Positions 466 to 41,952 of a stretch of DNA of 64,000 nucleotides are shown piece after piece. The stretch covers positions 62,001 through 126,000 of the forward strand of contig NZ_CP013632.1 of NCBI RefSeq assembly GCF_001664485.1, given 5' to 3'. The stretch's first letter is position 1, and each line of letters opens with the position of its first letter. The notes under the pieces were generated by a model. It was not told the origin of the DNA. It did not search any database and worked only from the letters and a program-made list of their open reading frames with translations. The DNA comes from Rhizobium sp. N324 (lineage in GTDB: Bacteria > Pseudomonadota > Alphaproteobacteria > Rhizobiales > Rhizobiaceae). The position numbers and the translations under genes were made by a program.

Positions 466-490
466 AACTGCGGCCCGTTCGAAGAGTTCC
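466..490 (-). promoter_or_regulatory. EcfG-type promoter for the alcohol dehydrogenase
   Basis: On the minus strand GGAAC is followed after exactly 16 bases by AGTT, matching the alphaproteobacterial general-stress consensus GGAAC-N16/17-CGTT except for the first base of the -10 element. The -10 element lies 28 bases upstream of the dehydrogenase start. It forms a divergent pair with the site at 546-570. Confidence 0.65.
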
Positions 491-545
491 GGGGGAAGTC
501 AAAGAAGTCATAGATGATGAAGTCAATAAAGATGTCATTGATGAA

Positions 546-570
546 GGAACTTTTCCATGAACGCTCGGTT
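546..570 (+). promoter_or_regulatory. EcfG-type promoter for the glycan operon
   Basis: GGAAC-N16-GGTT, ending 46 bases upstream of the first epimerase gene. Spacing and -35 match the EcfG/RpoE2 consensus exactly; the -10 is GGTT, a variant seen at five other sites in this window. It should drive the operon from 617 to 10945. Confidence 0.65.
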
Positions 571-616
571 CGGCCGCTATCTCTGAAGCAAATTGTTCAA
601 CCGGACGGACCCAATA

Positions 617-1720
617 ATGATGATTTTGATAACAGGGGGGTGCGGCTTTATCGGCCGCCATGTCGCTGAAGAACTTCTCAAAAACGGCTATAAGGTGCGT
701 GTTTTCGATGCGCTCATTGATCAGGTTCACGCCGATGCGGAGGTAAGCGTGCCCGACGGTGCGCAGGTCGTCCGAGGCAATGTCATGGACAAGGACGCGG
801 TCCGCTCGGCGCTTACCGACGTCGACGGCGTCATTCATCTTGCCGCCGAGGTGGGTGTTGGGCAATCGATGTACGAGATAGCCCGCTACGTCGGCAGCAA
901 TGACCTCGGGACGGCTGTGCTGTTGGAGGCAATGATCGGCCAGCCGGTTCAGAAAATCGTCGTCGCCTCCTCGATGAGCGTCTATGGCGAAGGGCTCTAT
1001 TTGACTGAAGATGGTCAGCGGAACGGCTCTGTCAGGCGCCGCGCCCATCGTCTGAAGCAAGGCAGGTGGGACCCAGTTGGACCGCACGAGGAGCAACTCA
1101 TGCCGATCGCCACCGACGAGGAAAAACCCGTTGACCTCGCCTCCATATACGCTCTGACAAAATACGCTCAGGAAAAGCAGGTCCTGATCTTCGGTGAAGC
1201 CTACGCCAAGGACGCCGTCGCGTTGCGGCTCTTCAATGTCTTCGGCGCCGGGCAGGCGCTCTCCAACCCCTATACTGGCGTGCTTGCAAATTTCGCCTCC
1301 AGACTTGCCAACGGGCAGCCGCCGATGATCTTCGAGGATGGCAGGCAACGGCGCGACTTCGTCCATGTGCGGGATGTGGCGACGGCTTTCCGCCTGGCGT
1401 TGGAAAAGCCGGCGGCAGCCGGTCACGTGATCAACATCGGCAGCGGCCAGGCCTATTCGATCGCCGATGTCGCGGCGCTTCTCGCCGACGCCATGGGCGT
1501 GCCCGATATCAGCCCCGACATCATGAACAAGGCTCGCTCCGGCGACATCCGAAATTGTTTTGCCGATATTTCGAAAGCCCGCGAACTGCTTGGTTTCGAA
1601 CCGAGATACCGACTTGAGAATGCGCTTGGTCCGTTCGCCGCCTGGGTCCGTCAAACCGGCGCGGTCGACCGCGGCGCCGAGATGAAGCGTCAACTGGAAG
1701 AGCGGGGGCTGGTTTCATGA
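617..1720 (+). CDS. NAD-dependent sugar epimerase/dehydratase (extended SDR)
   Basis: A 367-residue extended short-chain dehydrogenase. The Rossmann motif GGCGFIG is at the N-terminus, the catalytic serine in VASSMSVYGEG, and the YxxxK pair in YALTKYAQ, as in UDP-glucose 4-epimerases and related nucleotide-sugar enzymes. RRDFVHVRDVA is the usual substrate-binding strand. The ATG at 617 puts the Rossmann strand right at the N-terminus; a TTG eight codons upstream is less likely. It is the first gene of the operon, and its stop overlaps the next start (ATGA). The exact sugar nucleotide is unknown. It probably acts in the cytoplasm, making a precursor for the downstream glycosyltransferases. Confidence 0.85.
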   Translation: MMILITGGCGFIGRHVAEELLKNGYKVRVFDALIDQVHADAEVSVPDGAQVVRGNVMDKDAVRSALTDVDGVIHLAAEVGVGQSMYEIARYVGSNDLGTAVLLEAMIGQPVQKIVVASSMSVYGEGLYLTEDGQRNGSVRRRAHRLKQGRWDPVGPHEEQLMPIATDEEKPVDLASIYALTKYAQEKQVLIFGEAYAKDAVALRLFNVFGAGQALSNPYTGVLANFASRLANGQPPMIFEDGRQRRDFVHVRDVATAFRLALEKPAAAGHVINIGSGQAYSIADVAALLADAMGVPDISPDIMNKARSGDIRNCFADISKARELLGFEPRYRLENALGPFAAWVRQTGAVDRGAEMKRQLEERGLVS

Positions 1721-3759
1721 AGAAAATCGGCTCTGGACGGCCTACCAAGCAGGAGACGAGGCAGTTCGGCTTCGTCGAGTGGTTCCGACCGGGGGAGCGC
1801 GAGCGGACAGAAGCCGTGCTGCCGGATATTCTGGCAAGCGGCGCCAGTCATCTGCGAACACACCTCTCCTGGGCCGAATACTTGGCACCCGGCGGCCAGC
1901 AATGGTTCGATTGGCTGATCCCGCGCGTTGGAGCGCAAATCGATCTTCTACCTTGCATCCATTACACACCGCCTTCGCTCTCGCGAACGGGCAGGTCGTC
2001 AGGCGCCCCGGTCGACCTCAAATCCTATGCCGATTTCGTCGACCATATCCTGACGCGCTACGGCCGCTATTTCCGTCACATCGAGCTCTGGAACGAGCCG
2101 AACAACCTGCTCGATTGGGATTGGCGTCAAGACAGCGATTTCCTGCTTTTTTGCGAGATGGTCGGAGGCGCAGCCTACTGGGCCAAGCAGAGAGGCTATA
2201 AGCCGGTCCTTGGCGGCCCGTGCCCCTTTGATCCCTATTGGCTCAATCTCATGGGCGTGCGCGGTGTGCTTGGGGTCGTCGATGCCGTCGGTTTCCACGG
2301 CTTTCCCGGAACCTGGGACAGTGAAGAAGCCACCTGGGGCGGCTGGGACATGCATCTGGGCGAGATGCGCGGGATAATCGACCGATACAATGGCGATGCC
2401 GAGATATGGATTACCGAAGCGGGCTACTCCACCTGGCGCAACGACGAGATCGAACAGGCGCGGCGCTTCATCAAGGCGCTCAACGTGCCGGCCGACCGGA
2501 TGTATTGGTATTCCTGGTGCGATGTGCCGCCGGACGTCCCTGTTCAGGAAGGCTTATGGTTCGACCCGCGGCACTATCATCTTGGAGCGGTTACCCATGA
2601 CAACAAGCCGAAGCTTTTGGCTCGTCTTCTGATGGAAGGCGGCGTCAGCAAGCTGGCGGAGGTTGCCGCCCTTGCAGCGCCGCACATCGCCTCCGACGCT
2701 ACACCTGTGGTCGTGACCGGCGGCAGCGGCTTCGTCGGCTCCAATCTCGCCGACAGCCTGCTTGGCGATGGTGAGGACGTCATCATTCTCGATAATCTCG
2801 GGCGCGCGGGCGTCGATCAAAACCTCTCCTGGCTGATCGACAGACACGGCGCGCGGGTGCATCCGGTCCTTGCCGACGTCCGGGACCTGATGGGGATCGA
2901 AGCCGCCTTCAAGGACGCGAAAGCTGTCTTCCACTATGCCGCCCAAACAGCTGTGACCACCAGCATTGGTGATCCGCTTGCGGATTTCGAAACAAATGCG
3001 CGCGGCACCCTCAACGTATTGGAAGCGGTGCGCAAGGCAGGTAGACAGGCGCCCGTCATCTTCGCGAGCACCAACAAGGTCTATGGCGCGCTCGACGATC
3101 TCGGGATGGTCGAGGGCGACGACCGATATGTTCCCGAAAACGAGACCATAAGGACAAGGGGGATTGCCGAGGATCGGCCGCTCGATTTCTGCACGCCCTA
3201 TGGCTGCTCGAAAGGTGTCGCCGATCAGTATGTCCTCGACTACGCCAAGTCCTACGGCATTCCGGCTGCAGTGCTCAGGATGAGCTGCATCTATGGGCCG
3301 CGCCAGTTCGGGACCGAGGATCAGGGCTGGGTCGCTCATTTCCTGATCCGGGCGCTCGCAGGTGAAGCCATTTCCGTCTACGGCAGCGGCAAGCAGGTGC
3401 GCGACGTTCTTCACGTGGAGGATGCCGTGGCTGCCTACCGGACGCTGCTGGCCAATATCGACCGTGTCTGCGGGAACGCTTTCAACCTCGGCGGCGGGCC
3501 GAAAAACGCCGTCAGCGTACTTTCGGTGCTGCGCGAAATCGAGGAGGTGACCGGGCGCCCGGTCGAGACCAGTTTCGGCCCCTGGCGGGCCGGCGACCAG
3601 TTCTACTTCGTTGCCGATACCGAAAAGCTCGAAAGGGAGACCGGATGGGCCGCCGGCGTCGGATGGCGCGATGGGCTGCGGCATCTGGCCGAATGGCTGA
3701 TTGCCAATCGTTTCGGCGGTCAGCAGATCCGCAGGGAAAAGCGCAAGGTAATGGCATGA
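1717..3759 (+). CDS. Fusion: glycosidase-like TIM barrel + CDP-paratose-2-epimerase-like SDR
   Basis: A 680-residue two-domain protein. Residues about 1-325 look like a clan-A glycoside hydrolase barrel: ELWNEPNN carries the putative acid/base glutamate and WITEAGYST the putative nucleophile. Residues about 330-675 are an extended SDR with GGSGFVGSN, the signature STNKVYGA and catalytic YGCSK, closest by eye to CDP-paratose/tyvelose 2-epimerases (RfbE). There is no stop or frame break between the halves and no signal peptide, so the hydrolase-like domain should be cytoplasmic. It overlaps both neighbours by ATGA. A cytoplasmic glycosidase joined to a nucleotide-sugar epimerase is an odd pairing; whether the barrel is active or a binding module is not known. 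Confidence 0.8.
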   Translation: MKKIGSGRPTKQETRQFGFVEWFRPGERERTEAVLPDILASGASHLRTHLSWAEYLAPGGQQWFDWLIPRVGAQIDLLPCIHYTPPSLSRTGRSSGAPVDLKSYADFVDHILTRYGRYFRHIELWNEPNNLLDWDWRQDSDFLLFCEMVGGAAYWAKQRGYKPVLGGPCPFDPYWLNLMGVRGVLGVVDAVGFHGFPGTWDSEEATWGGWDMHLGEMRGIIDRYNGDAEIWITEAGYSTWRNDEIEQARRFIKALNVPADRMYWYSWCDVPPDVPVQEGLWFDPRHYHLGAVTHDNKPKLLARLLMEGGVSKLAEVAALAAPHIASDATPVVVTGGSGFVGSNLADSLLGDGEDVIILDNLGRAGVDQNLSWLIDRHGARVHPVLADVRDLMGIEAAFKDAKAVFHYAAQTAVTTSIGDPLADFETNARGTLNVLEAVRKAGRQAPVIFASTNKVYGALDDLGMVEGDDRYVPENETIRTRGIAEDRPLDFCTPYGCSKGVADQYVLDYAKSYGIPAAVLRMSCIYGPRQFGTEDQGWVAHFLIRALAGEAISVYGSGKQVRDVLHVEDAVAAYRTLLANIDRVCGNAFNLGGGPKNAVSVLSVLREIEEVTGRPVETSFGPWRAGDQFYFVADTEKLERETGWAAGVGWRDGLRHLAEWLIANRFGGQQIRREKRKVMA

Positions 3760-4868
3760 CCACACAAAATCGACGCCCGGGGCACCGCCGCGTGCTGATG
3801 ACGGTCGACGCCGTCGGCGGGGTCTGGTCCTATGCCATGGACTTGGCCGCAGGATTGAAGCCCCGCCATGTCGAGGTTGTCTTCGCAGGACTTGGGCCCC
3901 GACCCACGGCGGAAAAGATTGCCGAGGCAAACAGGCTTGGTACGCTTGTCTGGCTGGAGGCGCCGCTCGACTGGATGGCCGGGTATGAAGCGGCGGTTGC
4001 CGAGGTGCCCCGTCTGATCGCTGATCTCGCTCGCCGAAAAAAGGTAGATTTTCTTCATCTCAATTTGCCGTCGCAGGCGGCGGGCATCGAAACGGACCTG
4101 CCGGTGATCGTGGTCTGTCATTCCTGTGTCGTGACCTGGTTTGCGGCCGTGCGTGCCGCCAAGGTGCCGCGCGACTGGCAATGGCAATATCGGCTGAACC
4201 AGGCCGGTTTTGCACGTGCAGACGCGGTGATCGCACCAAGCGGCAGCCATTCTGCGGCGATGGCGGCGGCCTATGGACCGATCGCCAACCTCAGCGTCGT
4301 CTACAATTCGGCTGCGCTCAAGCCTTCCAGCGAGACCAAACAGAATTTTGTCCTGGCAGCCGGCCGCTGGTGGGACGAGGGAAAGAACGGCGCCGTGCTC
4401 GATGCGGCGGCGGGCCTGACGCGCTGGCCGCTGAAGGTGGCCGGCGCAAATCGTGGCCCTGACGGGCAATACCTGCCGTTTCGCAATGCCGACCATCTGG
4501 GCGAGCTCTCGCGCGAACGGATGATGGTTCTGGCGCGGCAGGCGGCCATTGTGGTTTCGCCGTCGGTTTACGAGCCTTTCGGGCTGGCGGCTTTGGAAGC
4601 GGCAAGGGCGGGCGCGGCCTTGGTGCTCTCCGATATTCCGACCTATCGCGAGATCTGGAACGACGCCGCGCTGTTTGTCGATCCGCATCAGCCCAAAGCG
4701 TTCGCCCATGCCTTCAACCGCCTCGCCGATGACCCGCAGCAACGGGTTGCGCTTGGCCTGAAGGCGCAGGAGCGATCGGCGAGGTTCAGCCTCGAGGGAC
4801 AGGCGCAAGCGATGTACGCGATTTATTCCGGCAGGCTTGGCCACGCCTTTTCGACAGCAGCGGAGTGA
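3756..4868 (+). CDS. Glycosyltransferase family 4 (GT-B fold)
   Basis: A 370-residue retaining GT-B glycosyltransferase. The C-terminal donor-binding signature is clear: VSPSVYEPFGLAALEAARAG contains the EPFGLAALE stretch typical of GT4, followed by SDIPTYREIW. The N-terminal half has a VDAVGGVWSYAMDLAAGL stretch, an early glycine-rich acceptor loop. The start at 3756 overlaps the preceding stop (ATGA); an upstream in-frame start would overlap 111 bases of the fusion gene and is rejected. It is soluble with no membrane segment and likely adds a sugar at the inner membrane face. Donor and acceptor are unknown. Confidence 0.85.
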   Translation: MTTQNRRPGHRRVLMTVDAVGGVWSYAMDLAAGLKPRHVEVVFAGLGPRPTAEKIAEANRLGTLVWLEAPLDWMAGYEAAVAEVPRLIADLARRKKVDFLHLNLPSQAAGIETDLPVIVVCHSCVVTWFAAVRAAKVPRDWQWQYRLNQAGFARADAVIAPSGSHSAAMAAAYGPIANLSVVYNSAALKPSSETKQNFVLAAGRWWDEGKNGAVLDAAAGLTRWPLKVAGANRGPDGQYLPFRNADHLGELSRERMMVLARQAAIVVSPSVYEPFGLAALEAARAGAALVLSDIPTYREIWNDAALFVDPHQPKAFAHAFNRLADDPQQRVALGLKAQERSARFSLEGQAQAMYAIYSGRLGHAFSTAAE

Positions 4869-4870
4869 TC

Positions 4871-6001
4871 ATGAAGTTCGTTTTCTATACTCATTCGCTG
4901 ATTTCCGACTGGAACCACGGCAACGCGCATTTTCTTCGGGGAGTGATGCGCGATCTGCAACGGCGCGGCCATGAAACGCTGGCATTGGAACCGGAGGATT
5001 CCTGGAGCCGTGCCAACCTTGTCAGCGATCAGGGGTCTGCGGTCATCGCAAAATTTCACGAGACTTTTCCGCAGCACCGCGCGCAGATCTATGGCAAGGA
5101 TTTCGATCATGAAGCCGCGCTTGGCGATGCTTATGTCGTCATCGTCCACGAGTGGACGCAACCCGATCTGGTCGAGCGTCTCGGTCGCATCCGGCGCCAT
5201 GGCGGCACTTTCACGCTGCTCTTTCACGACACGCATCATCGGGCAGTCTCGGCCGAAGGCGATATCGCCGGACTGACGCTGAGCGATTACGACGGTGTGC
5301 TGGCTTTCGGCGAGACGTTGCGGGAGCGCTATCTGCGCGCTGGCTGGGGCAGGTCCGTGTTCACCTGGCATGAAGCCGCCGACGATGCTCTGTTTCGACC
5401 TATGCCGGAGGTTCTAAGAACCGGAGACCTCATCTGGATCGGCAACTGGGGCGATGGTGAGCGGTCGGCCGAAATCGCCGAGTTTCTGGTCCACCCTGCC
5501 AAGTCGCTCGCCCTGAACGCGACGGTACGGGGCGTGCGCTATCCCGATCATGCGCTCGACGCCCTTCAGAGTGCCGGTATCGCCTACGGCGGATGGATTG
5601 CCAATGCCGACGTTCCCGTCGCCTTCGCCCGCCACAAGGTCACGGTGCACATTCCGCGCCGGCCTTACATCGAGCATCTGCCGGGCATTCCGACGATCCG
5701 CGTTTTCGAAGCGCTCTCATGCGGAATTCCTTTGATATCGGCGCCTTGGGACGACGCCGAGAACCTTTTCAAACCGGGCACGGATTTTCTTCTCGTTCGC
5801 GACGGCGAGGACATGAGGAAAAATCTGCGTGACGTGCTCGCCGACCCCGGCTGGGCCGCAAGTCTTGCTGCATCAGGCCTGGTGGCCATCAAGGCGCGCC
5901 ACACCTGCCGGCATCGCGTCGACGAGCTTTTTGAAGTCCTGGCGTGCTGCGGCACGAACCGGGTCACCACCAATCTCCAATCGCCGGAGGCTGCGGAATG
6001 A
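4871..6001 (+). CDS. CgeB-like glycosyltransferase, copy 1
   Basis: A 376-residue protein of the CgeB/Glyco_trans_1_2 type. It opens with MKFVFYTHSLISDWNHGNAH, matching the openings of the next two genes, and its C-terminal part has IPTIRVFEALSCGIPLISAPW, the donor-site region that contains the family's conserved glutamate. The ATG at 4871 has GGAG six bases upstream; a GTG at 4865 is the alternative. The gene overlaps the next by ATGA. It is the first of three tandem paralogues, likely arisen by duplication, that may add successive residues to one acceptor. The family is named after a Bacillus spore-coat protein; enzymatic activity here is inference. Confidence 0.8.
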   Translation: MKFVFYTHSLISDWNHGNAHFLRGVMRDLQRRGHETLALEPEDSWSRANLVSDQGSAVIAKFHETFPQHRAQIYGKDFDHEAALGDAYVVIVHEWTQPDLVERLGRIRRHGGTFTLLFHDTHHRAVSAEGDIAGLTLSDYDGVLAFGETLRERYLRAGWGRSVFTWHEAADDALFRPMPEVLRTGDLIWIGNWGDGERSAEIAEFLVHPAKSLALNATVRGVRYPDHALDALQSAGIAYGGWIANADVPVAFARHKVTVHIPRRPYIEHLPGIPTIRVFEALSCGIPLISAPWDDAENLFKPGTDFLLVRDGEDMRKNLRDVLADPGWAASLAASGLVAIKARHTCRHRVDELFEVLACCGTNRVTTNLQSPEAAE

Positions 6002-7089
6002 AAATCGCTTTTTACGGTTCGAGCCTGGTCTCCGCCTATTGGAATGGTGCAGCCACCTATTATCGGGGCCTGCTGCGGGCGATGGCGGCCAAAGGATATG
6101 ACATCACCTTCTACGAACCCGATGTCTATGATCGGCAAAAGAACCGCGACATGGATCCGCCGGACTGGTGCAAGGTCGTGGTCTACGAAGGCACGATCGG
6201 CGCCCTGAAGGCCGTCAGCGGTGCTGCGGCTGAGGCCGATATCGTCGTCAAGGCTAGCGGCGTCGGTTTCGAAGATGATCTGCTTCTCGAGGAGGTGCTT
6301 GCCCATGCGCAGCCGCATGCCCTGAAAATCTTCTGGGACGTCGATGCGCCTGCTACGCTTGCCGAACTCAGAGCCAATCCCGATCATCGGCTGCGCCGGG
6401 CGCTCGATCGGATCGATCTGGTGCTTACCTATGGCGGCGGCGATCCGGTGGTGAACATATACCGCTCCGTCGGAGCGGCGGACTGCGTGCCGATCTATAA
6501 TGCGCTCGATCCGCAAACGCATCATCCGGTGCCGGAGGACCATCGTTTCTCGGCCGATCTGGCTTTCCTCGGCAATCGCCTGCCGGACCGCGAGGCGCGG
6601 GTTGAGTACTTCTTCCTGGAGCCCGCCTCACGTCTGCCGGAGCGGGCGTTCCTGCTCGGCGGTTCCGGCTGGCAGGACAAGCCGATGTCGCCCAACATCC
6701 ACTATCTTGGCCATGTGTCGACGCGCGATCACAACGCCTTCAACGTGACCCCGATGGCGGTTCTCAATATATCGCGCGCGAGCATGGCGGAGAACGGCTT
6801 CTCGCCGGCGACCCGCGTCTTCGAAGCAGCCGGCGCCGGCGCCTGCCTCATTACCGACGCCTGGGAGGGCATCGAACTCTTCCTGAACCCCGACGAGGAA
6901 ATCCTGGTCGCGCGCGACGGGCAGGACGTGGCGGATTTGGTTGCCGGTTTGTCGCGCCGATCAGCTCGAAAGATCGGCGAGCGTGCGCGTCAGCGCGTGT
7001 TGGCCGAGCACACCTACGCCAATCGCGCCGAAACCCTGGACAAGATTTTGCGCGCTCGTCTTGGCGCGCGGATGGAGGCAGCCGAATGA
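5998..7089 (+). CDS. CgeB-like glycosyltransferase, copy 2
   Basis: A 363-residue paralogue of its two neighbours. It begins MKIAFYGSSLVSAYWNGAAT and ends with the donor-binding segment FSPATRVFEAAGAGACLITD, then WEGIELFLNPDEEILVA, a pattern typical of CgeB-like transferases. The start at 5998 overlaps the previous stop by four bases; an in-frame upstream start would run into copy 1. No membrane segment or signal peptide is visible. Donor and acceptor are unknown. Confidence 0.8.
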   Translation: MKIAFYGSSLVSAYWNGAATYYRGLLRAMAAKGYDITFYEPDVYDRQKNRDMDPPDWCKVVVYEGTIGALKAVSGAAAEADIVVKASGVGFEDDLLLEEVLAHAQPHALKIFWDVDAPATLAELRANPDHRLRRALDRIDLVLTYGGGDPVVNIYRSVGAADCVPIYNALDPQTHHPVPEDHRFSADLAFLGNRLPDREARVEYFFLEPASRLPERAFLLGGSGWQDKPMSPNIHYLGHVSTRDHNAFNVTPMAVLNISRASMAENGFSPATRVFEAAGAGACLITDAWEGIELFLNPDEEILVARDGQDVADLVAGLSRRSARKIGERARQRVLAEHTYANRAETLDKILRARLGARMEAAE

Positions 7090-8186
7090 TGCGACCGCTC
7101 GACATCGTCTTCCTCGGCCTTTCACTGTCCTCTTCCTGGGGAAACGGCCACGCCACGACCTATCGTGCCCTCGTCAAGGGGCTGCGACAGGACGGTCACC
7201 GGGTTCTGTTCCTGGAACGGGACGTTCCCTGGTACGCCAGCCAGCGGGATCTTGCCTCACCGGATTTCTGCGAACTCGCTTATTACGCCGACATCGACGC
7301 CATGCTCGAACTCTATCGACACAGGCTGCGCCATGCCGATGCGGTGATCGTCGGGTCCTACGTGCCCGAGGGTGTGGCGCTGATCGACCGGCTCGGCAGC
7401 CTGGCGCCAAAAAGCCTGTGCTTTTACGACATCGACACGCCTGTCACGCTTGCAAAGATCGACCGCGGCGACGAGGAATATCTAGCGCTGCGGCAGATCC
7501 CACTCTTTGACGTCTACTTCTCCTTTTCCGGAGGAGAGGTGCTGACCCGACTTGAGATGCGGTACGGTGCGCGGAAGGCTGTCGCACTTTACTGCTCGGT
7601 CGACGAAGGCCGCTATGCCAATACTGGCGAGCCATATTGCTGGGATCTCGGCTATCTCGGAACCTACAGCCCCGATCGGCAGCCGACTTTGGAACGCCTT
7701 CTTCTGGAGCCGGCGCGTCGATTGCCATCGATGCGCTTCGTCGTCGCGGGACCGCAATATCCCGCCGAGATCAACTGGCCGAGCAATGTGGAGAGGATCG
7801 AGCACCTGGCGCCCGCCGATCATTCCAGTTTTTACAGTCGCCAACGGTTCACCTTGAATGTGACCCGCAGCGACATGATCGCCTCGGGCTGGTCGCCGAG
7901 CGTGCGCCTGTTTGAAGCGGCCGCCTGCAAAACGCCGCTTATCAGCGACTTCTGGCGCGGTCTTGACGAATTGCTGCCCAATGGCGAGGCTTTGATCATT
8001 GCAAAGGGGCCAGCCGATGTCGTGGCGGTGCTGAGGGATCTCGCGGACGCCGACCGTAAAGCCATTGCTGCTGCCGCCAGACGGCGGGTCTTAGGTGGCC
8101 ATACTGGCGCCGCCCGCGGCGCCGAACTCGTCCGAGCCCTGTCGGAGCTGCCGGTAAACCGAGCTTGCGAGCGTATCTCAGCGTGA
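7086..8186 (+). CDS. CgeB-like glycosyltransferase, copy 3
   Basis: A 366-residue protein, third in the tandem set. It starts MMRPLDIVFLGLSLSSSWGN, followed by GHATTYRALVKGL, closely echoing copy 2, and has the C-terminal segment WSPSVRLFEAAACKTPLISD with WRGLDELLPNGEALIIA. It overlaps copy 2 by ATGA and lies 12 bases before the next epimerase gene, so it is surely co-transcribed. The three copies have diverged well beyond recent duplication, suggesting distinct linkages. Confidence 0.8.
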   Translation: MMRPLDIVFLGLSLSSSWGNGHATTYRALVKGLRQDGHRVLFLERDVPWYASQRDLASPDFCELAYYADIDAMLELYRHRLRHADAVIVGSYVPEGVALIDRLGSLAPKSLCFYDIDTPVTLAKIDRGDEEYLALRQIPLFDVYFSFSGGEVLTRLEMRYGARKAVALYCSVDEGRYANTGEPYCWDLGYLGTYSPDRQPTLERLLLEPARRLPSMRFVVAGPQYPAEINWPSNVERIEHLAPADHSSFYSRQRFTLNVTRSDMIASGWSPSVRLFEAAACKTPLISDFWRGLDELLPNGEALIIAKGPADVVAVLRDLADADRKAIAAAARRRVLGGHTGAARGAELVRALSELPVNRACERISA

Positions 8187-8198
8187 AGGAGAGTATCG

Positions 8199-9245: not shown

Positions 9246-9265
9246 TTGGAGAACGGAGGCAAACG

Positions 9266-14425: not shown

Positions 14426-14486
14426 TAAAGGTGTATCTTTATGCCGTGCCGAACGTTTAAAGTCGGTGCAACAGAGGCATGGATCG

Positions 14487-30486: not shown

Positions 30487-30521
30487 CGACGGCTCCATGG
30501 CGTTGATCCTTGTGGGCGCCC

Positions 30522-32240: not shown

Positions 32241-32737
32241 CGTAAGTTCGCAGGAATCCAAGATCAGCAGCTGAGGCGGACCGCACGACGACTGCGATAG
32301 GGGTCGCAGCATACAGGAGACTGATTGTCGTACGGTCCTTTTGCCTAACAAGGCCGCGGCGTCTGGGTTCCCAGCGGCGGACAGGGGGCGAGCGTGTCCG
32401 CGTCGAGACAGGAGGTTCCCTCTACGCGATCCAGGGCAACAACTCGTCCGAAGTAAATTCGGCTACGACCATCAAACTGTGAAATGTATCTTTCCCACCC
32501 TAGGGCTCCTTTTGGATTTCCCTGTCATAACCAATCCCACGGTGGCCGATGGCGTTAGCGTGGCGCAGATCACCAGTTCGGCAATCACGGAAGCAGCTGC
32601 TTTTCTAATGATGATGCCTTTCAGCTGCTTGCTGTGGGAGAGGCAGCTGTCCGCCCATCACTCGCTAAATTCCGTCTCAACGCTAAATAATATTTCGCGT
32701 GCGGATGACGCTAGCTGCTGCTCGTCACGCATTGTTG
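32241..32737. other. Gene-free divergent intergenic region
   Basis: About 500 bases between two divergent kinase genes. Open frames here are short, have no ribosome site and no recognisable domain. It must hold regulatory sequence for one or both kinases. Confidence 0.45.
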
Positions 32738-32762
32738 GGAACTGATCGTCTTCCTGGATGTT
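32738..32762 (+). promoter_or_regulatory. Possible EcfG-type promoter for the GAF-PAS-HWE kinase
   Basis: GGAAC-N16-TGTT pointing at the kinase. The -10 ends only 13 bases before the ATG, which would start transcription at or after the ribosome site, so either this is chance or translation starts without a leader. Confidence 0.35.
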
Positions 32763-32775: not shown

Positions 32776-34689
32776 ATGACAGGCCCGAGGAAGCAAGTGC
32801 TGGATCATGGGCAGTTAATCAAGCGTCAGAAAGTCCTCGCCGACTTCGGGGAGTTTGCGCTTCGCTCCGACGATCTGGATGCGGTCCTGAGCGAGGCCTG
32901 TCGTCTGGTCAGCGACGCTGTCGAAACGCGCCGCTCCAAGGTGTTGGAAATTCAGGAGGGTGGTCAAAGGCTGCGCGTGCGAGCCGCAGTTGGATGGCAG
33001 CCTGACATTGTCGGTCTCGAGCTGGACATGGAGGACCATTCCTCCGAGACCTATTCAATCCGGACCGGCGAGCCCGTAATCACTCAGGACATCACAAAGG
33101 AAGAGCGGTTCAAAACGCCCGATTTCATGCGAGCGGCCGGTGTCGCCGCGCTCGCCAACGTCCCGATCTTCTTACCGGGCAACCGTACTTTCGGTCTGCT
33201 TCAGGTCGACGACGTCGAGCCGAGGGATTTCGGTGAGGAAGACACACAATTCCTCAGAACCTACGCCACGATCCTTGGTCCGGTGATCGACAGGCTCCAC
33301 AAGATGCAGGCCCTTCAATCGACGGCGGAACGTTTCGCACTGGTCGTCGAGAATGCCCGCGACTACGCGATTTTCGTCGCGGACTCGCAGGATCGGATCG
33401 TCGACTGGCATAAGGGTGCTGAGAAAGTCTTCGGGTGGACGGCAGAGGAGGCCGCCGGAATGTCTTGCAGCGAACTCTTCACTGCCGAAGATCGGGCGCA
33501 GGGCGAGGATCGCAAGGAGATCGAGACGGCCAGACGCGAAGGTTCGGCTCCCGACGTGCGATGGCACGTGCGCAAGGACGGCTCGCAGGTTTTCGTCGAC
33601 GGCTCGACCGTGTGCCTTCGAAACCCCGACGGTTCGGTAAGAGGGTTCCTCAAGATCGGCCAGGATGTTACCGAAAAACATCGAACCGAACAGCGGCTTT
33701 TGGAGAGCGAAGCCTTGCAGCGATCGCTCATAGCGGGTGTTCCGCAACTGGTCTGGCGGGCCCGATCCGCTGGCCTTCGCATCTGGTCAAGCCCGCAGTG
33801 GGAACGGTTCACAGGACAGCGTGATGAAGACAGCGTCGGGATGGGTTGGCTGAACGCCATCCATCCGGAAGACCGTGACATGGTGACTGCGGCCTGGCGG
33901 GAGGCGGAAGCCAAGGGTGGGCTCGAATGCGAATATCGTATCCGTCGCGCTTCAGACCGGGAATATATCTGGCACCACAGCCGCTCGCTTCCAGGAAGCG
34001 GCTTAGGGCTCGAATGGCTCGGGACCTGCACTGATGTACAGCAGCTGAAGGAACTGCAGAGCAGCCAGGAGGTGATGCTGGCGGAGCTCCAGCATCGCAC
34101 CCGCAACATCGTCGCGGTCATACGGTCGCTGTCGCTAAAGACCATCGAAGCAAGCTTGACCTTGGAAGACTTCGCAGAGGCTTTTGGGCACAGGCTGGCC
34201 GCAGTTGCTAGAGTCCAGAGCCTTCTCTCCCAGCTGGGCGAACATGAACGGATTACGTTCGATGATCTGCTTGACGCCGAGTTGGCCGCGCATGTTACCG
34301 ACAGGGAAAAGATAATGCTGGACGGGCCTTCGGGGATCCGTTTGCGATCGCGAGCGATCCAGACATTCGCTCTGGCTCTCCACGAACTGGCGACCAACGC
34401 TGTCAAATACGGAGCGCTGGCATCTCCACAAGGCGGTCTTACGATCCGATGGCGTCTAGAAAATGAATCTGACGGCGGATCGCCGGCCTTGCTCCTGGAG
34501 TGGGTGGAAACTGGCGTTGACAACATGCCGGCCGCAGACGCGCCGGCCAAGGGTTCTGGCTATGGGCGGGAGCTCATCGAGCGCGCACTCCCCTATCAAC
34601 TCAAAGCCAAGACCACCTATGAAATGGGCGCCGGCGGCATCCGCTGCACTATCCTGGCTCCGATCGCTCTCGGTGCGTGGAAGGAATAA
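32776..34689 (+). CDS. GAF-PAS-PAS-HWE histidine kinase
   Basis: A 637-residue soluble sensor. Approximate domains: GAF 15-180 (VLADFGEFALRSDDLDAVLS, PIFLPGNRTFGLLQVDD), PAS 185-300 (RFALVVENARDYAIFVADSQ), PAS 308-426 and an HWE kinase 433-635 with LQHRTRN, N-box LHELATNAVKYGAL and EWVETG. The first PAS resembles that of the PAS-HWE kinase at 30855-31880. GGGGGA precedes the ATG at 32776; an ATG six codons upstream is the alternative. A receiver starts five bases after the stop, forming a kinase-receiver pair like the one at 14487-18840. Confidence 0.85.
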   Translation: MTGPRKQVLDHGQLIKRQKVLADFGEFALRSDDLDAVLSEACRLVSDAVETRRSKVLEIQEGGQRLRVRAAVGWQPDIVGLELDMEDHSSETYSIRTGEPVITQDITKEERFKTPDFMRAAGVAALANVPIFLPGNRTFGLLQVDDVEPRDFGEEDTQFLRTYATILGPVIDRLHKMQALQSTAERFALVVENARDYAIFVADSQDRIVDWHKGAEKVFGWTAEEAAGMSCSELFTAEDRAQGEDRKEIETARREGSAPDVRWHVRKDGSQVFVDGSTVCLRNPDGSVRGFLKIGQDVTEKHRTEQRLLESEALQRSLIAGVPQLVWRARSAGLRIWSSPQWERFTGQRDEDSVGMGWLNAIHPEDRDMVTAAWREAEAKGGLECEYRIRRASDREYIWHHSRSLPGSGLGLEWLGTCTDVQQLKELQSSQEVMLAELQHRTRNIVAVIRSLSLKTIEASLTLEDFAEAFGHRLAAVARVQSLLSQLGEHERITFDDLLDAELAAHVTDREKIMLDGPSGIRLRSRAIQTFALALHELATNAVKYGALASPQGGLTIRWRLENESDGGSPALLLEWVETGVDNMPAADAPAKGSGYGRELIERALPYQLKAKTTYEMGAGGIRCTILAPIALGAWKE

Positions 34690-34694: not shown

Positions 34695-35084
34695 ATGACG
34701 GTCGAAACCCTTGCTGGCCTAGCCATTCTTGTTGTTGAGGACGATTATTTCATCGCCGACGAACTGGCGCGCTCTCTTGCCCGTGCCGGTGCGCAGGTCG
34801 TCGGGCCGGTTGGCTCCCTGAATGACGCGCTTGCTCTTCTCGACGATACAGATCATCTGGATTTCGCCATACTCGACCTGAACCTCGATGGAGTGTCCGC
34901 TATTCCGATCGCAGACAAGCTGGCTGCTGGGAACTTACCCTTCGCATTCGTCACCGGATACGGCACCGGCGGAATCCCCTCTCGATTCAAGACCGTTGAA
35001 CGTCTCGACAAGCCCGTGGAGATAGCGCGGGTGGTCAGTTTGATAAAAAAGGCAGCGGCATCTTCGACGTCGGCGCCCGAGTAA
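34695..35084 (+). CDS. Single-domain response regulator paired with GAF-PAS-HWE kinase
   Basis: A 129-residue receiver with VVEDDYFIADE, ILDLNLDGV (phospho-acceptor), FAFVTGYG and LDKPVEI. AAGGAATAAG precedes the ATG at 34695; a GTG six codons upstream overlaps the kinase. It is the fifth receiver in the window with the FATGUY-type segment and is likely phosphorylated by the kinase directly upstream. Confidence 0.85.
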   Translation: MTVETLAGLAILVVEDDYFIADELARSLARAGAQVVGPVGSLNDALALLDDTDHLDFAILDLNLDGVSAIPIADKLAAGNLPFAFVTGYGTGGIPSRFKTVERLDKPVEIARVVSLIKKAAASSTSAPE

Positions 35085-35682: not shown

Positions 35683-35707
35683 AACCTCAGGCATCAACCA
35701 GAGTTCC
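35683..35707 (-). promoter_or_regulatory. EcfG-type promoter for the Ser/Gly-rich protein
   Basis: Minus strand GGAAC-N16-GGTT, 42 bases upstream of the ATG. The -35 element ends right at the TA target of the IS630 insertion, so the core promoter survives but everything upstream of it was displaced. Confidence 0.65.
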
Positions 35708-35709: not shown

Positions 35710-36759
35710 GAGTCTGTCAGCGCTAATCGGAATCGTGCGGAGATTCCCTTGCCTTTGATTTTGTGATTCAAGGTCATTGCTGGTGTGGAGGCCGGCAATG
35801 ATGGTGCGACCTCTTTCTCTGGATTTGCGAACGCGCATTGCGACAGCGTTGAGTGATGGCATGACGGTTCGCGCCGCAGCGGAGCGGTTCGGCATATCGG
35901 CTGCGACAGCGGTACGGATCGGACAGCTCGATCGTTCAGGTAAAGGCCTGATGCCGGCGAAGATCGGCGGCTATGTCAAACCGACACTGAGGGGTGCGGC
36001 CGCCGATGCCGTGCGTCAGCGGCTACAAGTCAAGTCCGACTGGACGGTGCGCGCACTGTCGGCGGACCTGAAGGCTGCGGGGATCAACGTGTCTCACGAC
36101 ACCGTCTGGCGCTTTCTGCGCAGCGAAGGCAAGACCTTCAAAAAAAACGATGGTGGCAAGCGAGCAAGACCGCCCGAAGGTGGTCCGGTTCCGGATGCGA
36201 TGGAAGACCCATCAGCACCGGCTTGATCCGGACCGTCTCGTCTTCATCGACGAGACTTGGGTCAAGACCAACATGACGCGCACCTGCGGCTGGTGTCAGC
36301 GGGGAGAGCCCCTCATTGCAAAAGTCCCTCATGGTCATTGGAAGACACTGACCTTCCTGGCCGGCTTACGCCGCGATAGCATCGTTGCCCCCTTCGTCCC
36401 CGATGGTCCCATCAATGGCATCGCTTTTACCGCATGGGTTCGCCAATGTCTGGTCCCGACACTCAAAGCCGGTGACATCGTCATCCTCGACAATCTGGGA
36501 AGCCACAAGGGAAAGCCGGCCCGCGATGCGATCCGAGACGTCGGTGCACATCTCTTTTTCCTGCCGCCCTACAGCCCCGACCTCAATCCCATCGAGATGA
36601 TGTTCGCAAAGCTCAAGACACTCGTCAGAAAGGCAGACGAACGAACCGTTGAAACTACATGGAGACGCATTGGAGAACTCTTGAAGGCGTTCAGTCCCCA
36701 GGAGTGCTCCAACTACCTCAGACATGCAGGGTATGGTTCAGAATAACCCTGACAGACTC
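35710..36759 (+). mobile_element. IS630-family insertion sequence, complete
   Basis: A 1050-base element. The ends are inverted repeats beginning GAGTCTGTCAG on the left and the reverse complement CTGACAGACTC on the right, with further imperfect matching inward. Both ends are flanked by TA (35708-35709 and 36760-36761), the target duplicated by IS630 elements. It encodes one transposase in two overlapping frames. Confidence 0.9.
35798..36746 (+). CDS. IS630 transposase, two frames joined by a +1 shift at A8
   Basis: The N-terminal frame encodes the helix-turn-helix part (TVRAAAERFGISAATAVRIG) and the DNA-binding region to about 36226. The catalytic part is in another frame from about 36150 with FIDETWVKTN, ILDNLGSHKG and PYSPDLNPIEMMFAKLK, the three DDE positions. 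The frames meet at a run of eight A's near 36139-36146; reading it as seven joins the two into one IS630 protein. This is either programmed slippage or an inactivating insertion. GGAGG precedes the ATG. Confidence 0.8.
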
Positions 36760-36953: not shown

Positions 36954-37466
36954 TCAGACCTTTGCCGTTTGTCCGCTTTCCTTCAAGGACGCAAACCGCA
37001 ATGTTACATCCCGCAGGTTCTCGTCCAGCCACTGTGCCATTGCCTGCTCCTCTTTCAGGTTTGTCTGCAGAACCGCGGTTACTTCGCGGTATCCACCGAG
37101 CTCCGAAAGGACGAGCATCGACTTGTATGCGGCGATTTCGAAGTGTTCGAAGGCAAAGTTTGCAAAGGAGTTCTTGAGGATCTCGTCTGCAGCAATCGTG
37201 TGTCCCATCGCCGCCACACTTCCGGCGACCGACAGTGCCATGTCCTTCAATGTCGAATGGTCTGTATCGAAGCTATCGAGAAGGTCTTCAAGACGCGCGA
37301 TCTGGCTTTCCGTCTCGGCGATGTGCTGTTCAAGTCGACGCGCGACTTCTGGATAGTTTTCGATACGGGAGACTTGCGGCTTCATGATCGAGAGCGCCTG
37401 GTTTTCCATTGCATGGGCGTTCTTCAGGCCGGTGATGATCAAGGATGTGTGCTGGGCGTCCGCCAT
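36954..37466 (-). CDS. DUF892 ferritin-like protein (YciE/YciF type)
   Basis: A 170-residue four-helix protein of the DUF892 family. The helices carry EQHIAETESQIARLEDLLDS and FAFEHFEIAAYKSMLVLSEL, whose glutamates and histidines could hold a di-iron site, and the chain is of the usual length. GGAGGAG lies before the ATG. The family is linked to stress and stationary phase; an EcfG-type promoter upstream agrees. Confidence 0.8.
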   Translation of the reverse strand: MADAQHTSLIITGLKNAHAMENQALSIMKPQVSRIENYPEVARRLEQHIAETESQIARLEDLLDSFDTDHSTLKDMALSVAGSVAAMGHTIAADEILKNSFANFAFEHFEIAAYKSMLVLSELGGYREVTAVLQTNLKEEQAMAQWLDENLRDVTLRFASLKESGQTAKV

Positions 37467-37496: not shown

Positions 37497-37521
37497 AACC
37501 GCCGCCGCTTAAAAATGTTCC
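37497..37521 (-). promoter_or_regulatory. EcfG-type promoter for the DUF892 gene
   Basis: Minus strand GGAAC-N16-GGTT with the -10 30 bases upstream of the ATG. Spacing, sequence and distance match the other sites closely. Confidence 0.7.
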
Positions 37522-37897: not shown

Positions 37898-37922
37898 GGA
37901 ACAATGGCGTGTCATACCGGTT
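37898..37922 (+). promoter_or_regulatory. EcfG-type promoter for the 67-residue protein
   Basis: GGAAC-N16-GGTT, ending 24 bases before the ATG. Its position ahead of a very short gene supports that gene being real. Confidence 0.7.
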
Positions 37923-37946: not shown

Positions 37947-38150
37947 ATGCCCAGAATCCTAAATTCGCGCCAGATCATTGTCTCGTCTGATCGTCTTCAC
38001 GACTGCGAGGACTTTCTCGAAAACGAATTTCACCAGATAATTGATCATGCTCTGAGTGTTGGTTGGTCTCTCGATGAGGTGGCGGTTGCGCTCAATCGCC
38101 TCGTCGCCGAGGAGATCGCTATTCCAGCGCGAGCAGTCACCCTGCATTGA
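37947..38150 (+). CDS. 67-residue protein, unknown function
   Basis: A short soluble protein with a helical core (LENEFHQIIDHALSVGWSLD, then EVAVALNRLVAEE). AAAAGGATAAGG precedes the ATG at 37947. It has a well-formed EcfG-type promoter and stands alone. No family is recognised; it could be a stress-response effector or regulator. Confidence 0.6.
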   Translation: MPRILNSRQIIVSSDRLHDCEDFLENEFHQIIDHALSVGWSLDEVAVALNRLVAEEIAIPARAVTLH

Positions 38151-38459: not shown

Positions 38460-39269
38460 TCATCCAGCTTTCCGACCTTTGAGGTCGGCTTGGATGCTCT
38501 TTTTCAGCGCGTCCATGATGTTGACGACATTCGATGCGGGCGCCGGCGCTGCTTTCCCCTTTGCCGTCTTCTTCGGCTTCAGAAGCTTCTTCTTCTCCTC
38601 GATCAGCTTCAGCAAACTGGTCTGGATCGGATCGCTGACCATATTCGTCGACCAGCGGGCTGACTTCTGCTTGATCAGTTTCTGGACGAGAGGAACGAGA
38701 TCGGGATCGGCTTCGGCCTCGATGTCGTCGAAATAATTCTCCTCCGGACGGATCTCGTCGCCGAACCGCAGCGACCATAGAACAATGCCCTCATCGCGAG
38801 GTTCGAGGATGACGGCGCGCTCGCGGCGGCCCATGACGAGTTTTGAAACGCCGACGACCTTGTCCGCCTTCATCGCGTCCCTGATGACGGCGAAAGCCTC
38901 GTTCCCGACAGCGTCGTCAGGCATGAGGTAGTGAGGCTTTTCCAAGTAGATCCAGTCGATACTATCGGCCGGGACGAACTTCTCGATGTCAATTGTCTTC
39001 ACCGTGTCGAGCGCCACCCGATCCAGATCGTCGTCGCTCAGGAGCACGTAGTCGTTTTCGCCGCGTGCGTAGCCCTTTACCTCGTTGTCTTCTTTCACGG
39101 GCTTGCCCGTGACGGAATCGACGTACTGTGAAAAGACACGGTTTCCGGTGTCGCGGTTGAGGGTGTGGAAGCGAACCTTCTCGCTTTCGCTGGTCGCTGG
39201 AGACATCGCAACAGGGCATGTGACCAACGACAGTTTCAAGTAGCCTTTCCAGTAGTAGCGCGGTGCCAT
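38460..39269 (-). CDS. ku: Ku protein, non-homologous end joining (second gene of pair)
   Basis: A 269-residue bacterial Ku. It starts MAPRYYWKGYLKLSLVTCPV, the usual opening of the family, and has a central IEKFVPADSIDWIYLEKPHY, then YLMPDDAVG, and a lysine-rich C-terminal tail (KKKLLKPKKTAKGKA). Ku forms dimers that bind DNA ends and recruit LigD. No ligD is in the window. It lies 12 bases after the other ku gene and is surely co-transcribed. Confidence 0.9.
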   Translation of the reverse strand: MAPRYYWKGYLKLSLVTCPVAMSPATSESEKVRFHTLNRDTGNRVFSQYVDSVTGKPVKEDNEVKGYARGENDYVLLSDDDLDRVALDTVKTIDIEKFVPADSIDWIYLEKPHYLMPDDAVGNEAFAVIRDAMKADKVVGVSKLVMGRRERAVILEPRDEGIVLWSLRFGDEIRPEENYFDDIEAEADPDLVPLVQKLIKQKSARWSTNMVSDPIQTSLLKLIEEKKKLLKPKKTAKGKAAPAPASNVVNIMDALKKSIQADLKGRKAG

Positions 39270-39281
39270 GACGCGGTCTCC

Positions 39282-40187
39282 TCAGCTTGCCTTGCGACGC
39301 GCGGCCGCTCCGGAAGCAGGGGCTTTTGAAGCTGCTCCGCGTACGGCGCGTTGGCGACCCGTGCCCTGATTGGCATTGGCGGCGGTGCGCTTGGGCTTGT
39401 TTGCGGCATTCAACACGCCCGCGCTTTCGCGCAGCGCGGCGAGAAGATCGTTCGGCTTCGACACTTCGATCTTCTTCGGCTTGGGAAGCGCCTTGCCTTC
39501 CATTTTGGCCTTGACCAGGTCGGCGAGGGCGGCTTCGTAGCGATCGTCGAAAGTCGCAGGGTCGAATGTACCTCTCTTCGTACCAATGATGTGTTTGGCA
39601 AGATCGAGCATCTCTCCCTCTATCTTCATTTTGGGTATGTCCTCAAAGGCCGTTTTCGCCGAGCGGACCTCGTAGTCGTAGTTCATGGTGGTCGCGATAA
39701 GGCCTTTGCCATGTGCCCGAATGAGCACGGTTCGCATTCGCCGGAACAGAACCGTGCGCGCTATGGCGACGACATTGGATTTCCTCATGCCGTCCCGGAG
39801 CGCCGCGTATGCGTCGCTGCCCATCCTGTCAGGGGTCAGGTAATAGGGCTTGTCGAAGTAGACGTCGTTCACATCCGAGCAGGGTATGAAGGCTTCGATT
39901 TCGAGGGTTTTGTTGCTCTCGGGGATCGTGGCAGCGACCTCTTCGGGATCGATGATGATGTACTGGCCGTCCTCAATCTCGAAGCCCTTTGTCTGCTGCT
40001 CCTTCGGAACTGGATCTTCTGTCTCGCTGTCGATGAAGATGCGGTTTACCCGGTTGCCGGATGCCCTATTGATCGTATTGAAGGTAATGCGCTCTGCCGT
40101 GCTTGCCGCGGTATAAAGCGCTACTCCGCAGCTGACCTCACCGAACTTTATGAAGCCTTTCCACTGCGCGCGGTGCCCTGTTGCCAT
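39282..40187 (-). CDS. ku: Ku protein, non-homologous end joining (first gene of pair)
   Basis: A 301-residue Ku paralogue: MATGHRAQWKGFIKFGEVSC at the start, IEAFIPCSDVNDVYFDKPYY in the core, and a long basic, Ala-rich tail. GGAGAAG lies before the ATG at 40187; a frame extending 27 codons upstream would cover the inverted repeat and is rejected. The two Ku proteins differ greatly, so they may form a heterodimer, as suggested for paired Ku genes in rhizobia. Stress induction of end joining through RpoE2 has been reported in Sinorhizobium meliloti. Confidence 0.9.
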   Translation of the reverse strand: MATGHRAQWKGFIKFGEVSCGVALYTAASTAERITFNTINRASGNRVNRIFIDSETEDPVPKEQQTKGFEIEDGQYIIIDPEEVAATIPESNKTLEIEAFIPCSDVNDVYFDKPYYLTPDRMGSDAYAALRDGMRKSNVVAIARTVLFRRMRTVLIRAHGKGLIATTMNYDYEVRSAKTAFEDIPKMKIEGEMLDLAKHIIGTKRGTFDPATFDDRYEAALADLVKAKMEGKALPKPKKIEVSKPNDLLAALRESAGVLNAANKPKRTAANANQGTGRQRAVRGAASKAPASGAAARRKAS

Positions 40188-40219: not shown

Positions 40220-40244
40220 AAGACGTCTCAAGGTGATTCGTTCC
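40220..40244 (-). promoter_or_regulatory. Weak EcfG-type promoter for the ku pair
   Basis: Minus strand GGAAC-N16-TCTT; the -35 is perfect and the distance to the start (32 bases) is like the others, but only the final TT of the -10 matches. Confidence 0.35.
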
Positions 40245-40611: not shown

Positions 40612-40636
40612 GGAACTACTGGAATCGTCGCGAGTT
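40612..40636 (+). promoter_or_regulatory. EcfG-type promoter for the DUF3606 gene
   Basis: GGAAC-N16-AGTT ending 35 bases before the ATG. It could also serve the 77-residue gene downstream. Confidence 0.6.
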
Positions 40637-40671: not shown

Positions 40672-40854
40672 ATGGCAAAGAACCAGACATCCCGAGGCCG
40701 CACACAGGATCGCGCGCGCGTTGCTGGCGGGCAAGATCACGAAGTGAAATACGAAGCAAAAAAGGAAGGTGTTTCCACGGATACGGTAAAGTAAGCGGTC
40801 AAGAGCGCTGGCAACTCCCGGAAGAAAGTTGAAGGCGAAATCAGCCGTCACTGA
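40672..40854 (+). pseudogene. DUF3606 protein gene with an internal stop
   Basis: The reading frame starts MAKNQTSRGRTQDRARVAGG and runs to a TAA at 40792-40794 after 40 residues. The same frame continues for 19 codons past the stop (AVKSAGNSRKKVEGEISRH), which is the normal C-terminal half of a DUF3606 protein. The TAA probably replaced a lysine codon. GAGGAAAAATCC precedes the ATG. Read-through or use of the short form cannot be excluded. Confidence 0.65.
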
Positions 40855-41179: not shown

Positions 41180-41210
41180 CAGTCGTCACCAGCCAATCCG
41201 GTGACGGCTG
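41180..41210 (+). terminator. Hairpin after the 77-residue gene
   Basis: CAGTCGTCACC pairs with GGTGACGGCTG (10 of 11 Watson-Crick pairs plus one wobble) around a nine-base loop, starting 12 bases after the stop codon and followed by TT. This fits an intrinsic terminator. Confidence 0.55.
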
Positions 41211-41580
41211 TTCCGTGTCGGCGGGGAAGCACGGCTGCTATTGATGTGGCAAACGGGGCCCGGTGAACTTCAATTGCGAAAGGCGCGCGAGGCTCTTTTT
41301 GACTTCATTTCTACGTCCGGGCGTCGGCGGAATTTTTCAACGAAACCGGAGTAACCGGGTATGACGAACCTGCGAGCGAAAGAGCGAGAATGCAGGATCC
41401 GAGGGCGTTATAGGCCGCGTCTTGCTAGCAGGCGGATCACCCGTTTCGAAGGCGCGGAGACCCGGGGTCGGGTTGTCGTCGTCGCTGTCGCGCAGGTGAG
41501 AAGGCCCGGCCGGCAGTTCAGAGATCGGCGCAAGAATCGACGCGACAGAATGGTCAGGCCGGGCGGAAAGATGTCGGCAG
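41211..41580. other. Gene-free convergent gap
   Basis: About 370 bases with only spurious short open frames; no function seen. Confidence 0.4.
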
Positions 41581-41901
41581 TTAGTCGGCAGCCGTGTGGG
41601 CCTCCCGGAAACTCTCGATCTGTTCCGGCTCCTTCTCGTCAAGATGCGTGATTTGGTTCCTGGCGTCGCCATGAGCATGAAGAAGTTCATCCAGCTTGGC
41701 ATGGATTGCCTGCGTATCCCGGTGTTCGGCGCGCTGGATGAATAAGGTCATGAGCCACGTGGCAAGGGTGGCCAAGCCGTGCCATTCAAGAGTCTGACGA
41801 CTGAATACCAACCAGGAAAGCCCGTAGATAATCACGATTGCGAAGGCATATGGACTGGCAGTCCACGTGCCTAGGTCGGTTAGCCAGGAACGCCAGCGCA
41901 T
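41581..41901 (-). CDS. Low-affinity iron permease-like small membrane protein
   Basis: A 106-residue protein with two membrane segments (SPYAFAIVIIYGLSWLVFS and LATLATWLMTLFIQ) followed by RAEHRDTQAIHAKLDELLHA, the signature of the low-affinity iron permease (Fet4-like) family in bacteria. The C-terminal 35 residues are acidic. The start at 41901 follows GAGGAC; an upstream 49-residue extension is rejected. Whether it transports iron is unproven in bacteria. It has an EcfG-type promoter. Confidence 0.75.
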   Translation of the reverse strand: MRWRSWLTDLGTWTASPYAFAIVIIYGLSWLVFSRQTLEWHGLATLATWLMTLFIQRAEHRDTQAIHAKLDELLHAHGDARNQITHLDEKEPEQIESFREAHTAAD

Positions 41902-41927
41902 CGTTTTGTCCTCATGGTCCTCGAGGA

Positions 41928-41952
41928 AACTCCGAAAACGCCCCGCTGTTCC
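41928..41952 (-). promoter_or_regulatory. EcfG-type promoter for the iron-permease-like gene
   Basis: Minus strand GGAAC-N16-AGTT with the -10 26 bases upstream of the ATG. Confidence 0.65.

Follow-up and report, generated by a model that had tools for sequence, protein, structure and literature searches.

A promoter island on replicon C3

The window analyzed here is a 64-kb stretch of DNA from Rhizobium sp. N324, corresponding to positions 62001-126000 of C3, a large extra replicon of 407,833 bases; the genome, in six contigs and 6.97 Mb, also comprises contigs of 4.64 Mb and of 306, 447, 504 and 668 kb. Coordinates below are window positions unless prefixed C3. The window contains ecfG2, a gene for an EcfG-like sigma factor of the extracytoplasmic function (ECF) type, set among genes for a terminal oxidase, Ku proteins, HWE kinases and receivers, together with repeated exact copies of the promoter motif GGAAC-N16-NGTT (Table 1). 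We consider here how this promoter island is organized and which sigma factor is likely to read it.

Over the whole genome the motif is not in excess, with 238 exact matches compared with 230 for the reversed pattern used as a control. The window, however, holds 14 sites, where the genome count corresponds to 2.18 per 64 kb (Poisson p = 8.5e-8); about two by chance had been estimated in the original prediction. The cluster reaches about 9 kb beyond the left edge of the window and is roughly 50 kb in length; this island (C3:52-105 kb) contains 19 sites, where the density outside it would give 1.7, and its clustering has a p value of about 4e-12 after a crude scanning correction. When the spacer is varied, the 19 matches at N16 compare with 0-4 at each of 16 other spacings. 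Equal density elsewhere in the genome had been named beforehand as the observation that would speak against an island. That comparison was run in part and gave no such result: 36 control stretches of 20 kb hold 0-4 sites each, and the neighborhoods of four other sigma-like matches in the same genome have 0-1 sites in 20 kb.

An exact pattern scan recovered all twelve of the sites first predicted, each with a spacer of 16 and with the -10 letters as given (GGTT six times, AGTT four times, CGTT and TGTT once each), along with two exact matches that had been overlooked (Table 1). The claim that the sites occupy gene-free gaps holds for 17 of the 19 island sites according to our own rough gene calls, by which 19.3% of the sequence is intergenic; of the two called coding, 35683(-) agrees better with the beginning of a small gene on the minus strand. 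Proximity to the adjacent gene likewise stands for 11 of the twelve sites, where the -10 lies about 15-55 nt from a plausible start, and not for 32216(-), where the distance is 335 nt. Weaker forms had been proposed upstream of ku and cheB, and only the former could be located, with no site at one mismatch or fewer before cheB; in R. etli, cheB is preceded by GGAAC-N16-TGTT at 28 nt.

All eight island sites to the left of C3:63 kb begin with GGAACT, and two or three of the GGTT sites in the left half of the island resemble sites on another R. etli replicon; the left half may thus have a different origin. A smaller second group of five GGAAC-N16-[AG]GTT sites lies outside the window at C3:177084-190822, 73 kb past the island.

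The island sigma factor

The product of ecfG2 matches Sigma70_r2, Sigma70_r4_2 and PhyR_sigma2 above the Pfam cut-offs, giving it both the architecture of an ECF sigma factor and a likeness to the PhyR sigma domain. It is 81% identical to RHE_RS26680, encoded on plasmid p42f of R. etli, and 45% identical to the chromosomal EcfG1 of its own genome, and among plasmid-borne proteins it is closest to those of Rhizobium sp. NZLR1 (88% identity) and of R. acidisoli (86%). A tree was built from 60 sequences (24 EcfG1, 22 EcfG2, 10 more distant EcfG-like proteins and four other ECF sigma factors of N324). In it the 22 EcfG2 sequences, including the p42f protein, form one clade (support 100/99) and the 24 EcfG1 sequences another (99/96), which bears out the prediction of an EcfG-like sigma gene. 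The ten more distant proteins fall nearer to EcfG2, less firmly (91/94), and the EcfG-type sequences separate from the four other ECF sigma factors at 92/94, on long branches and without outside ECF15 references. EcfG1 and EcfG2 differ in the part of region 2 that reads the -10 (PGTSLKSW versus MGTNMKAW) and in the helix that follows.

The published work drawn on here was covered in part (PMC3892343, PMC3188799, PMC6180224, PMC4814048, PMC7083833, PMC11387232, PMC4167512, PMC3616915). We infer that RHE_RS26680 is PF00052, the R. etli EcfG2 of these studies, because of the accession order along p42f and because the published identity of EcfG2 to RpoE4 (42%; PMC3892343, PMC3188799) equals the 42.4% found between RHE_RS26680 and the EcfG1 of its genome. 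Judged by sequence, R. etli EcfG2 is the most likely orthologue of the island sigma.

The canonical locus, in which nepR-ecfG and phyR are divergent, lies on C1 and is absent from the island. As predicted, the island contains neither PhyR nor NepR: the sole NepR match over the cut-off and the PhyR gene are both on C1, and a NepR profile search of C3 gave no match at E values up to 1. A small open reading frame (ORF) at 28189-28428 was considered as a hidden NepR and rejected, having no Pfam or NCBIfam match. With its position on the 408-kb extra replicon and no NepR or PhyR nearby, ecfG2 has the features of the non-canonical group and lacks those of the canonical partner switch. A search of 25 genomes gave one NepR each in 24, of which seven carry EcfG2.

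Sigma-EcfG2 of R. etli CFN42 is similarly plasmid-borne, with no NepR or response regulator reported nearby in the parts covered (PMC3892343), and is described as autoregulated, (p)ppGpp-dependent and protective against oxidative stress (PMC3892343, PMC3188799). It differs from the present case in that the papers, in those parts, give no motif and no island, and in that gene content is shared in part. The canonical EcfG1/RpoE4-NepR-PhyR system has the GGAAC -35, the 16-base spacing and an EcfG-type sigma in common with the island, but has C before GTT or ATT, NepR and PhyR adjacent, and a sigma of 45% identity to EcfG2. Additional EcfG copies occur in about half of completed alphaproteobacterial genomes, where their presence has been called "not satisfactorily explained" (PMC3892343). 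RpoE5 of Sinorhizobium meliloti is also a second ECF15 sigma factor on an extra replicon (pSymB), but it is reported to have a single putative target and an ORF for a possible NepR-like partner (PMC6180224), and it is not among the 60 sequences of our tree. Methylobacterium extorquens and Sphingopyxis granuli likewise have several EcfGs per genome, with -10 elements that include GGTT, but these paralogues are reported to read similar promoters.

Conservation of the island around EcfG2

We assembled 22 EcfG2 regions totaling 871 kb, consisting of 40 kb around each of 20 orthologues (31 kb for one of these), the R. etli region and the N324 locus. The 16-base spacing gives 178 sites in these regions, compared with 12-31 at each of 14 other spacings, and at least three sites are present in 21 of the 22. 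The pooled sites are concentrated at the region center, where the sigma gene lies, with 52 of the 178 within 2 kb of it and 7-11 per 2-kb bin past 10 kb. The neighborhood of ecfG2 on R. etli p42f shows the same promoter island: the first 90 kb of the plasmid contain 17 sites, of which 15 fall in the interval 45-84 kb, and comparison by hand with the listed genes places 13 in intergenic DNA and four inside a gene. On p42f, another ECF sigma gene, accompanied by an NrsF-family partner, is located 2.5 kb away from ecfG2.

Ten more distant EcfG-like loci, from nine genomes and with 46-54% identity, were also considered. Seven have at least five sites, with a maximum of 22, and the pooled count at N16 is 93, versus 4-27 at other spacings; from these sequences, local promoter islands may be a wider habit of EcfG paralogues. 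Several of these more distant sigma genes are surrounded by 12-22 sites in 40 kb. The base before GTT is mixed at these loci (C 32, T 27, G 20, A 14), and avoidance of C in this position is clearest for EcfG2.

The base before GTT

In the 22 EcfG2 regions the base preceding GTT is G at 95 sites (6.6 expected), A at 37 (3.0), T at 27 (4.1) and C at 19 (5.4), which relative to ten other spacings amounts to enrichments of about 14-, 12-, 6.6- and 3.5-fold. When like copies are grouped, 77 remain (G 35, A 19, T 13, C 10), with C less frequent among them than it is at other spacings (p = 0.0009). Within the N324 island, C occurs at one of 19 sites, compared with 96 of the 219 sites outside it (p = 0.0005); the promoter that carries it, upstream of the receiver-Crp gene, is matched by a CGTT site on R. 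etli p42f. The canonical locus has CGTT before phyR and GGAAC-N16-CATT on the divergent nepR-ecfG1 side in 23 of 24 cases, the 24th locus being cut short, and the phyR promoter has a 17-base spacer in four loci. Within 20 kb of the N324 canonical locus there are three exact sites, each of them CGTT, and the EcfG1 motif as published is GGAAC-N16-CGTT (PMC3892343).

Across 120 genomes from the genus, the mean GGTT count was 67.7 (reversed pattern 48.4) in the 30 that have EcfG2 and 56.0 (54.3) in the 90 that lack it, an excess of 19.3 versus 1.7, with a p value of 1e-5 that ignores the relatedness of the genomes. Raw CGTT counts were alike in the two sets (p = 0.97) and the CGTT excess was borderline (p = 0.06). 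Distant EcfG paralogues were tried as a cause of the GGTT excess in EcfG2-negative genomes and discarded: of the 22 such genomes in which the excess is greatest, 15 have them, where 12 would be expected, a difference short of significance (p = 0.11). A second -35 of the form CGAAC was discarded as well, its excess being mostly the mirror image of GGAAC sites; once 66 mirror matches with non-G first bases were dropped, 49 CGAAC sites were left, against 20.6 expected.

A promoter-like element before ecfG2

No GGAAC promoter at one mismatch or fewer precedes ecfG2 within 27700-28600, and its absence led us to an element of the form GCAAC-N16-RCTT. The 22 aligned orthologue upstream regions share GTCCG-N-WA-Y-CG-Y-AC-N-GCAACGA with RCTT at a fixed distance, a pattern that fits 21 of the 22 when one letter is relaxed. 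Among 84,980 species the exact pattern occurs in 21 stretches. The 18 of these that come from Rhizobium all precede ecfG2, and their RCTT lies at a distance of 19-26 nt to the start; the remaining three are in unrelated genera without such a sigma. The N324 genome has one exact copy, and at three mismatches the element is no commoner than the control (8 versus 7). GCAAC is one of the two commonest -35 forms reported in Sphingopyxis. We read the element as a putative EcfG2 promoter with a candidate regulator site upstream. A 22-base block before ecfG2 at 27853-27874 (-), larger than a -35 box, is conserved across Rhizobium.

A model for EcfG2 and its alternatives

We suggest, with a probability of about 0.74, that the island is the satellite regulon of a replicon-borne, non-canonical EcfG2 with a shifted -10 preference. 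The satellite general-stress module of the original prediction finds support in the local site density and the sigma clade, with control by the island sigma itself presumed. According to this model, RNA polymerase with EcfG2 would read the GGAAC-N16-NGTT sites and switch on a local stress set comprising a caa3-type oxidase, Ku, DUF892, an iron permease, sugar genes, HWE kinases and receivers, with CGTT promoters shared with EcfG1 and non-C promoters largely private to EcfG2. With no dedicated NepR found, the level of EcfG2 would depend mostly on how much of it is made from the GCAAC-N16-RCTT element and the GTCCG block upstream of that element, and the kinases and receivers of the island would signal to the PhyR switch on the chromosome. 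For a sigma factor whose published motif search was empty, the model would offer a specific motif, a set of targets and a candidate element for its control; a limited literature search found no later published EcfG2 motif.

It also bears on reporter experiments in E. coli, in which the phyR promoter and ReC64 respond to both R. etli sigmas, the ecfG1 promoter to EcfG1 alone and the ecfG2 promoter to EcfG2 alone (PMC3892343). With -10 elements of CGTT (phyR), CATT (ecfG1) and RCTT (ecfG2), these specificities fit, after the fact, a scheme in which EcfG1 needs C at the first base and EcfG2 does not, but rejects CATT, so that a one-base hypothesis would account for the results on all three promoters. 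In a more general form, to which we assign slightly less than even odds, EcfG2 has a promoter code of its own, preferring G, A or T, with RCTT at its own gene, and EcfG1 needs C; this would give an extra replicon a second general-stress regulon, shielded in part from EcfG1 and not subject to NepR, and the non-canonical paralogues of the genus would tend to have local islands, as portable stress modules added to the core response.

Several observations weigh against EcfG2 as the dedicated reader of the island. The motif search of Jans et al. (2013) on EcfG2-dependent genes was empty (PMC3892343), and a 2014 paper states one motif common to both sigmas. One of the 22 EcfG2 regions holds a single site, and katG, which depends on EcfG2 in R. 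etli, lacks a site at one mismatch or fewer and was rejected as a direct target. N324 itself has no overall GGTT excess (60 versus 65 reversed), several EcfG2-negative genomes do show one, and relatedness is neglected in the presence/absence p value. In addition, several EcfGs of M. extorquens have C/GGTT as their consensus, and GGTT and TGTT both occur in stress promoters of Sphingopyxis; a base other than C is thus by itself no proof of a private sigma.

The use of GGTT or TGTT by other alphaproteobacterial EcfGs would also suit a scheme in which the island promoters are read mainly by the chromosomal EcfG1, with EcfG2 acting as an amplifier and the varied -10 elements reflecting tuned strength. 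R. etli EcfG1 and EcfG2 do share targets (PMC3892343), and some left-half sites, having counterparts on another replicon, need not depend on the local EcfG2. We nevertheless regard this scheme as unlikely: the sites peak at the sigma gene across the 22 regions, both canonical promoters retain C wherever the locus is complete, C is depleted in the island relative to the rest of the genome, and the GGTT excess tracks the presence of EcfG2. Several sites also match on the opposite strand when shifted by 2 bases, which raises the further idea that the motif is not a sigma promoter but the palindromic operator (GAAC-N17-GTTC) of a regulator that binds as a dimer. This seems very improbable, because C follows GTT in 80 of 178 sites versus 72 of 191 at other spacings, no marked symmetry, and because the perfect sites face nearby gene starts in one direction. 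As for a chance or composition effect, which the genome-wide parity with the reversed pattern might suggest, we give it almost no credence, as one of 17 spacings is enriched in the island, the enrichment is repeated in relatives, and the clustering survives the scanning correction.

Gene content of the island

The gene content fits a general stress regulon. The oxidase run in the window is of the caa3 type, with a molybdopterin oxidoreductase, and the island genes to the left of the window include DUF4142, YetF, PCMT, a permease and dehydrogenases. The predicted HWE kinases and FATGUY receivers are present, five receivers carrying FATGUY-like motifs.

Table 1. Genes and promoter sites of the window, in window coordinates; distances are to the start of the gene named.
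Feature	Position	Strand	Description
Zinc-type alcohol dehydrogenase promoter site	466-490	-	GGAAC-N16-AGTT, 27 nt before gene left of window
Epimerase/sugar operon site	546-570	+	GGAAC-N16-GGTT, 46 nt before operon
Run of eight same-strand ORFs	617-10000	+	Gene calls; first two epimerase-type (Pfam scan of those two)
Receiver-Crp gene site	11043-11067	+	GGAAC-N16-CGTT, 37 nt upstream; sole C form in island
FATGUY-type receiver fused to Crp-like HTH	11105-12253	+	Domain and motif
Near-form site	12342-12366	+	GCAAC-N16-AGTT, 23 nt before receiver at 12390
Two single-domain FATGUY-type receivers	12390-12797, 12831-13226	+	
CheB gene, then CheB-CheR-PAS-HWE kinase gene (14487-18464)	13406-18464	+	
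FATGUY-type receiver	18457-18840	+	
Oxidase run	19266-27063	-	Molybdopterin oxidoreductase, cytochromes c, COX1/2/3, CtaG
Molybdopterin oxidoreductase site	27119-27143	-	GGAAC-N16-AGTT, 55 nt before ATG
ecfG2, EcfG-like (ECF15-type) sigma, 174 aa	27286-27810	-	Pfam, identity, tree
ecfG2 promoter-like element GTCCGCTATCGTACAGCAACGA	27835-27874	-	GCAAC 27859-27855, N16, GCTT 27838-27835, 24 nt before ATG
Three genes	28549-30498	-	No-family protein, holin-X (PF07332), DUF3618
Site before 29965-30498 gene	30522-30546	-	GGAAC-N16-GGTT, 23 nt upstream
PAS-HWE kinase	30855-31880	-	Likely start 31880
Kinase-facing site	32216-32240	-	GGAAC-N16-GGTT, 335 nt before likely kinase start
Overlooked site	32347-32371	-	GGAAC-N16-TGTT, intergenic
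GAF-PAS-HWE kinase site	32738-32762	+	GGAAC-N16-TGTT, 34 nt upstream
GAF-PAS-HWE kinase	32797-34689	+	
FATGUY-type receiver	34695-35084	+	
Site before small Ser/Gly-rich, signal-peptide-like ORF	35683-35707	-	GGAAC-N16-GGTT
DUF892 (ferritin-like) protein	36954-37466	-	
DUF892 site	37497-37521	-	GGAAC-N16-GGTT, 30 nt upstream
Site before 67-aa ORF	37898-37922	+	GGAAC-N16-GGTT, 24 nt upstream
67-aa ORF, absent from gene calls	37947-38150	+	Starts 24 nt after exact site
Two Ku genes	38460-40187	-	
Ku near-form site	40220-40244	-	GGAAC-N16-TCTT, 32 nt before upstream Ku ATG
Site before 40-aa ORF	40612-40636	+	GGAAC-N16-AGTT, 35 nt upstream
40-aa ORF, possibly cut short	40672-40794	+	After exact site
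Low-affinity iron permease-like protein	41581-41901	-	
Permease-like gene site	41928-41952	-	GGAAC-N16-AGTT, 26 nt upstream
Overlooked site inside a gene	53245-53269	-	GGAAC-N16-CGTT

The 40-aa ORF resembles the start of a small, DUF3606-like stress protein. A DDE_3 transposase fragment also lies within the island, at 36150-36746 (+).

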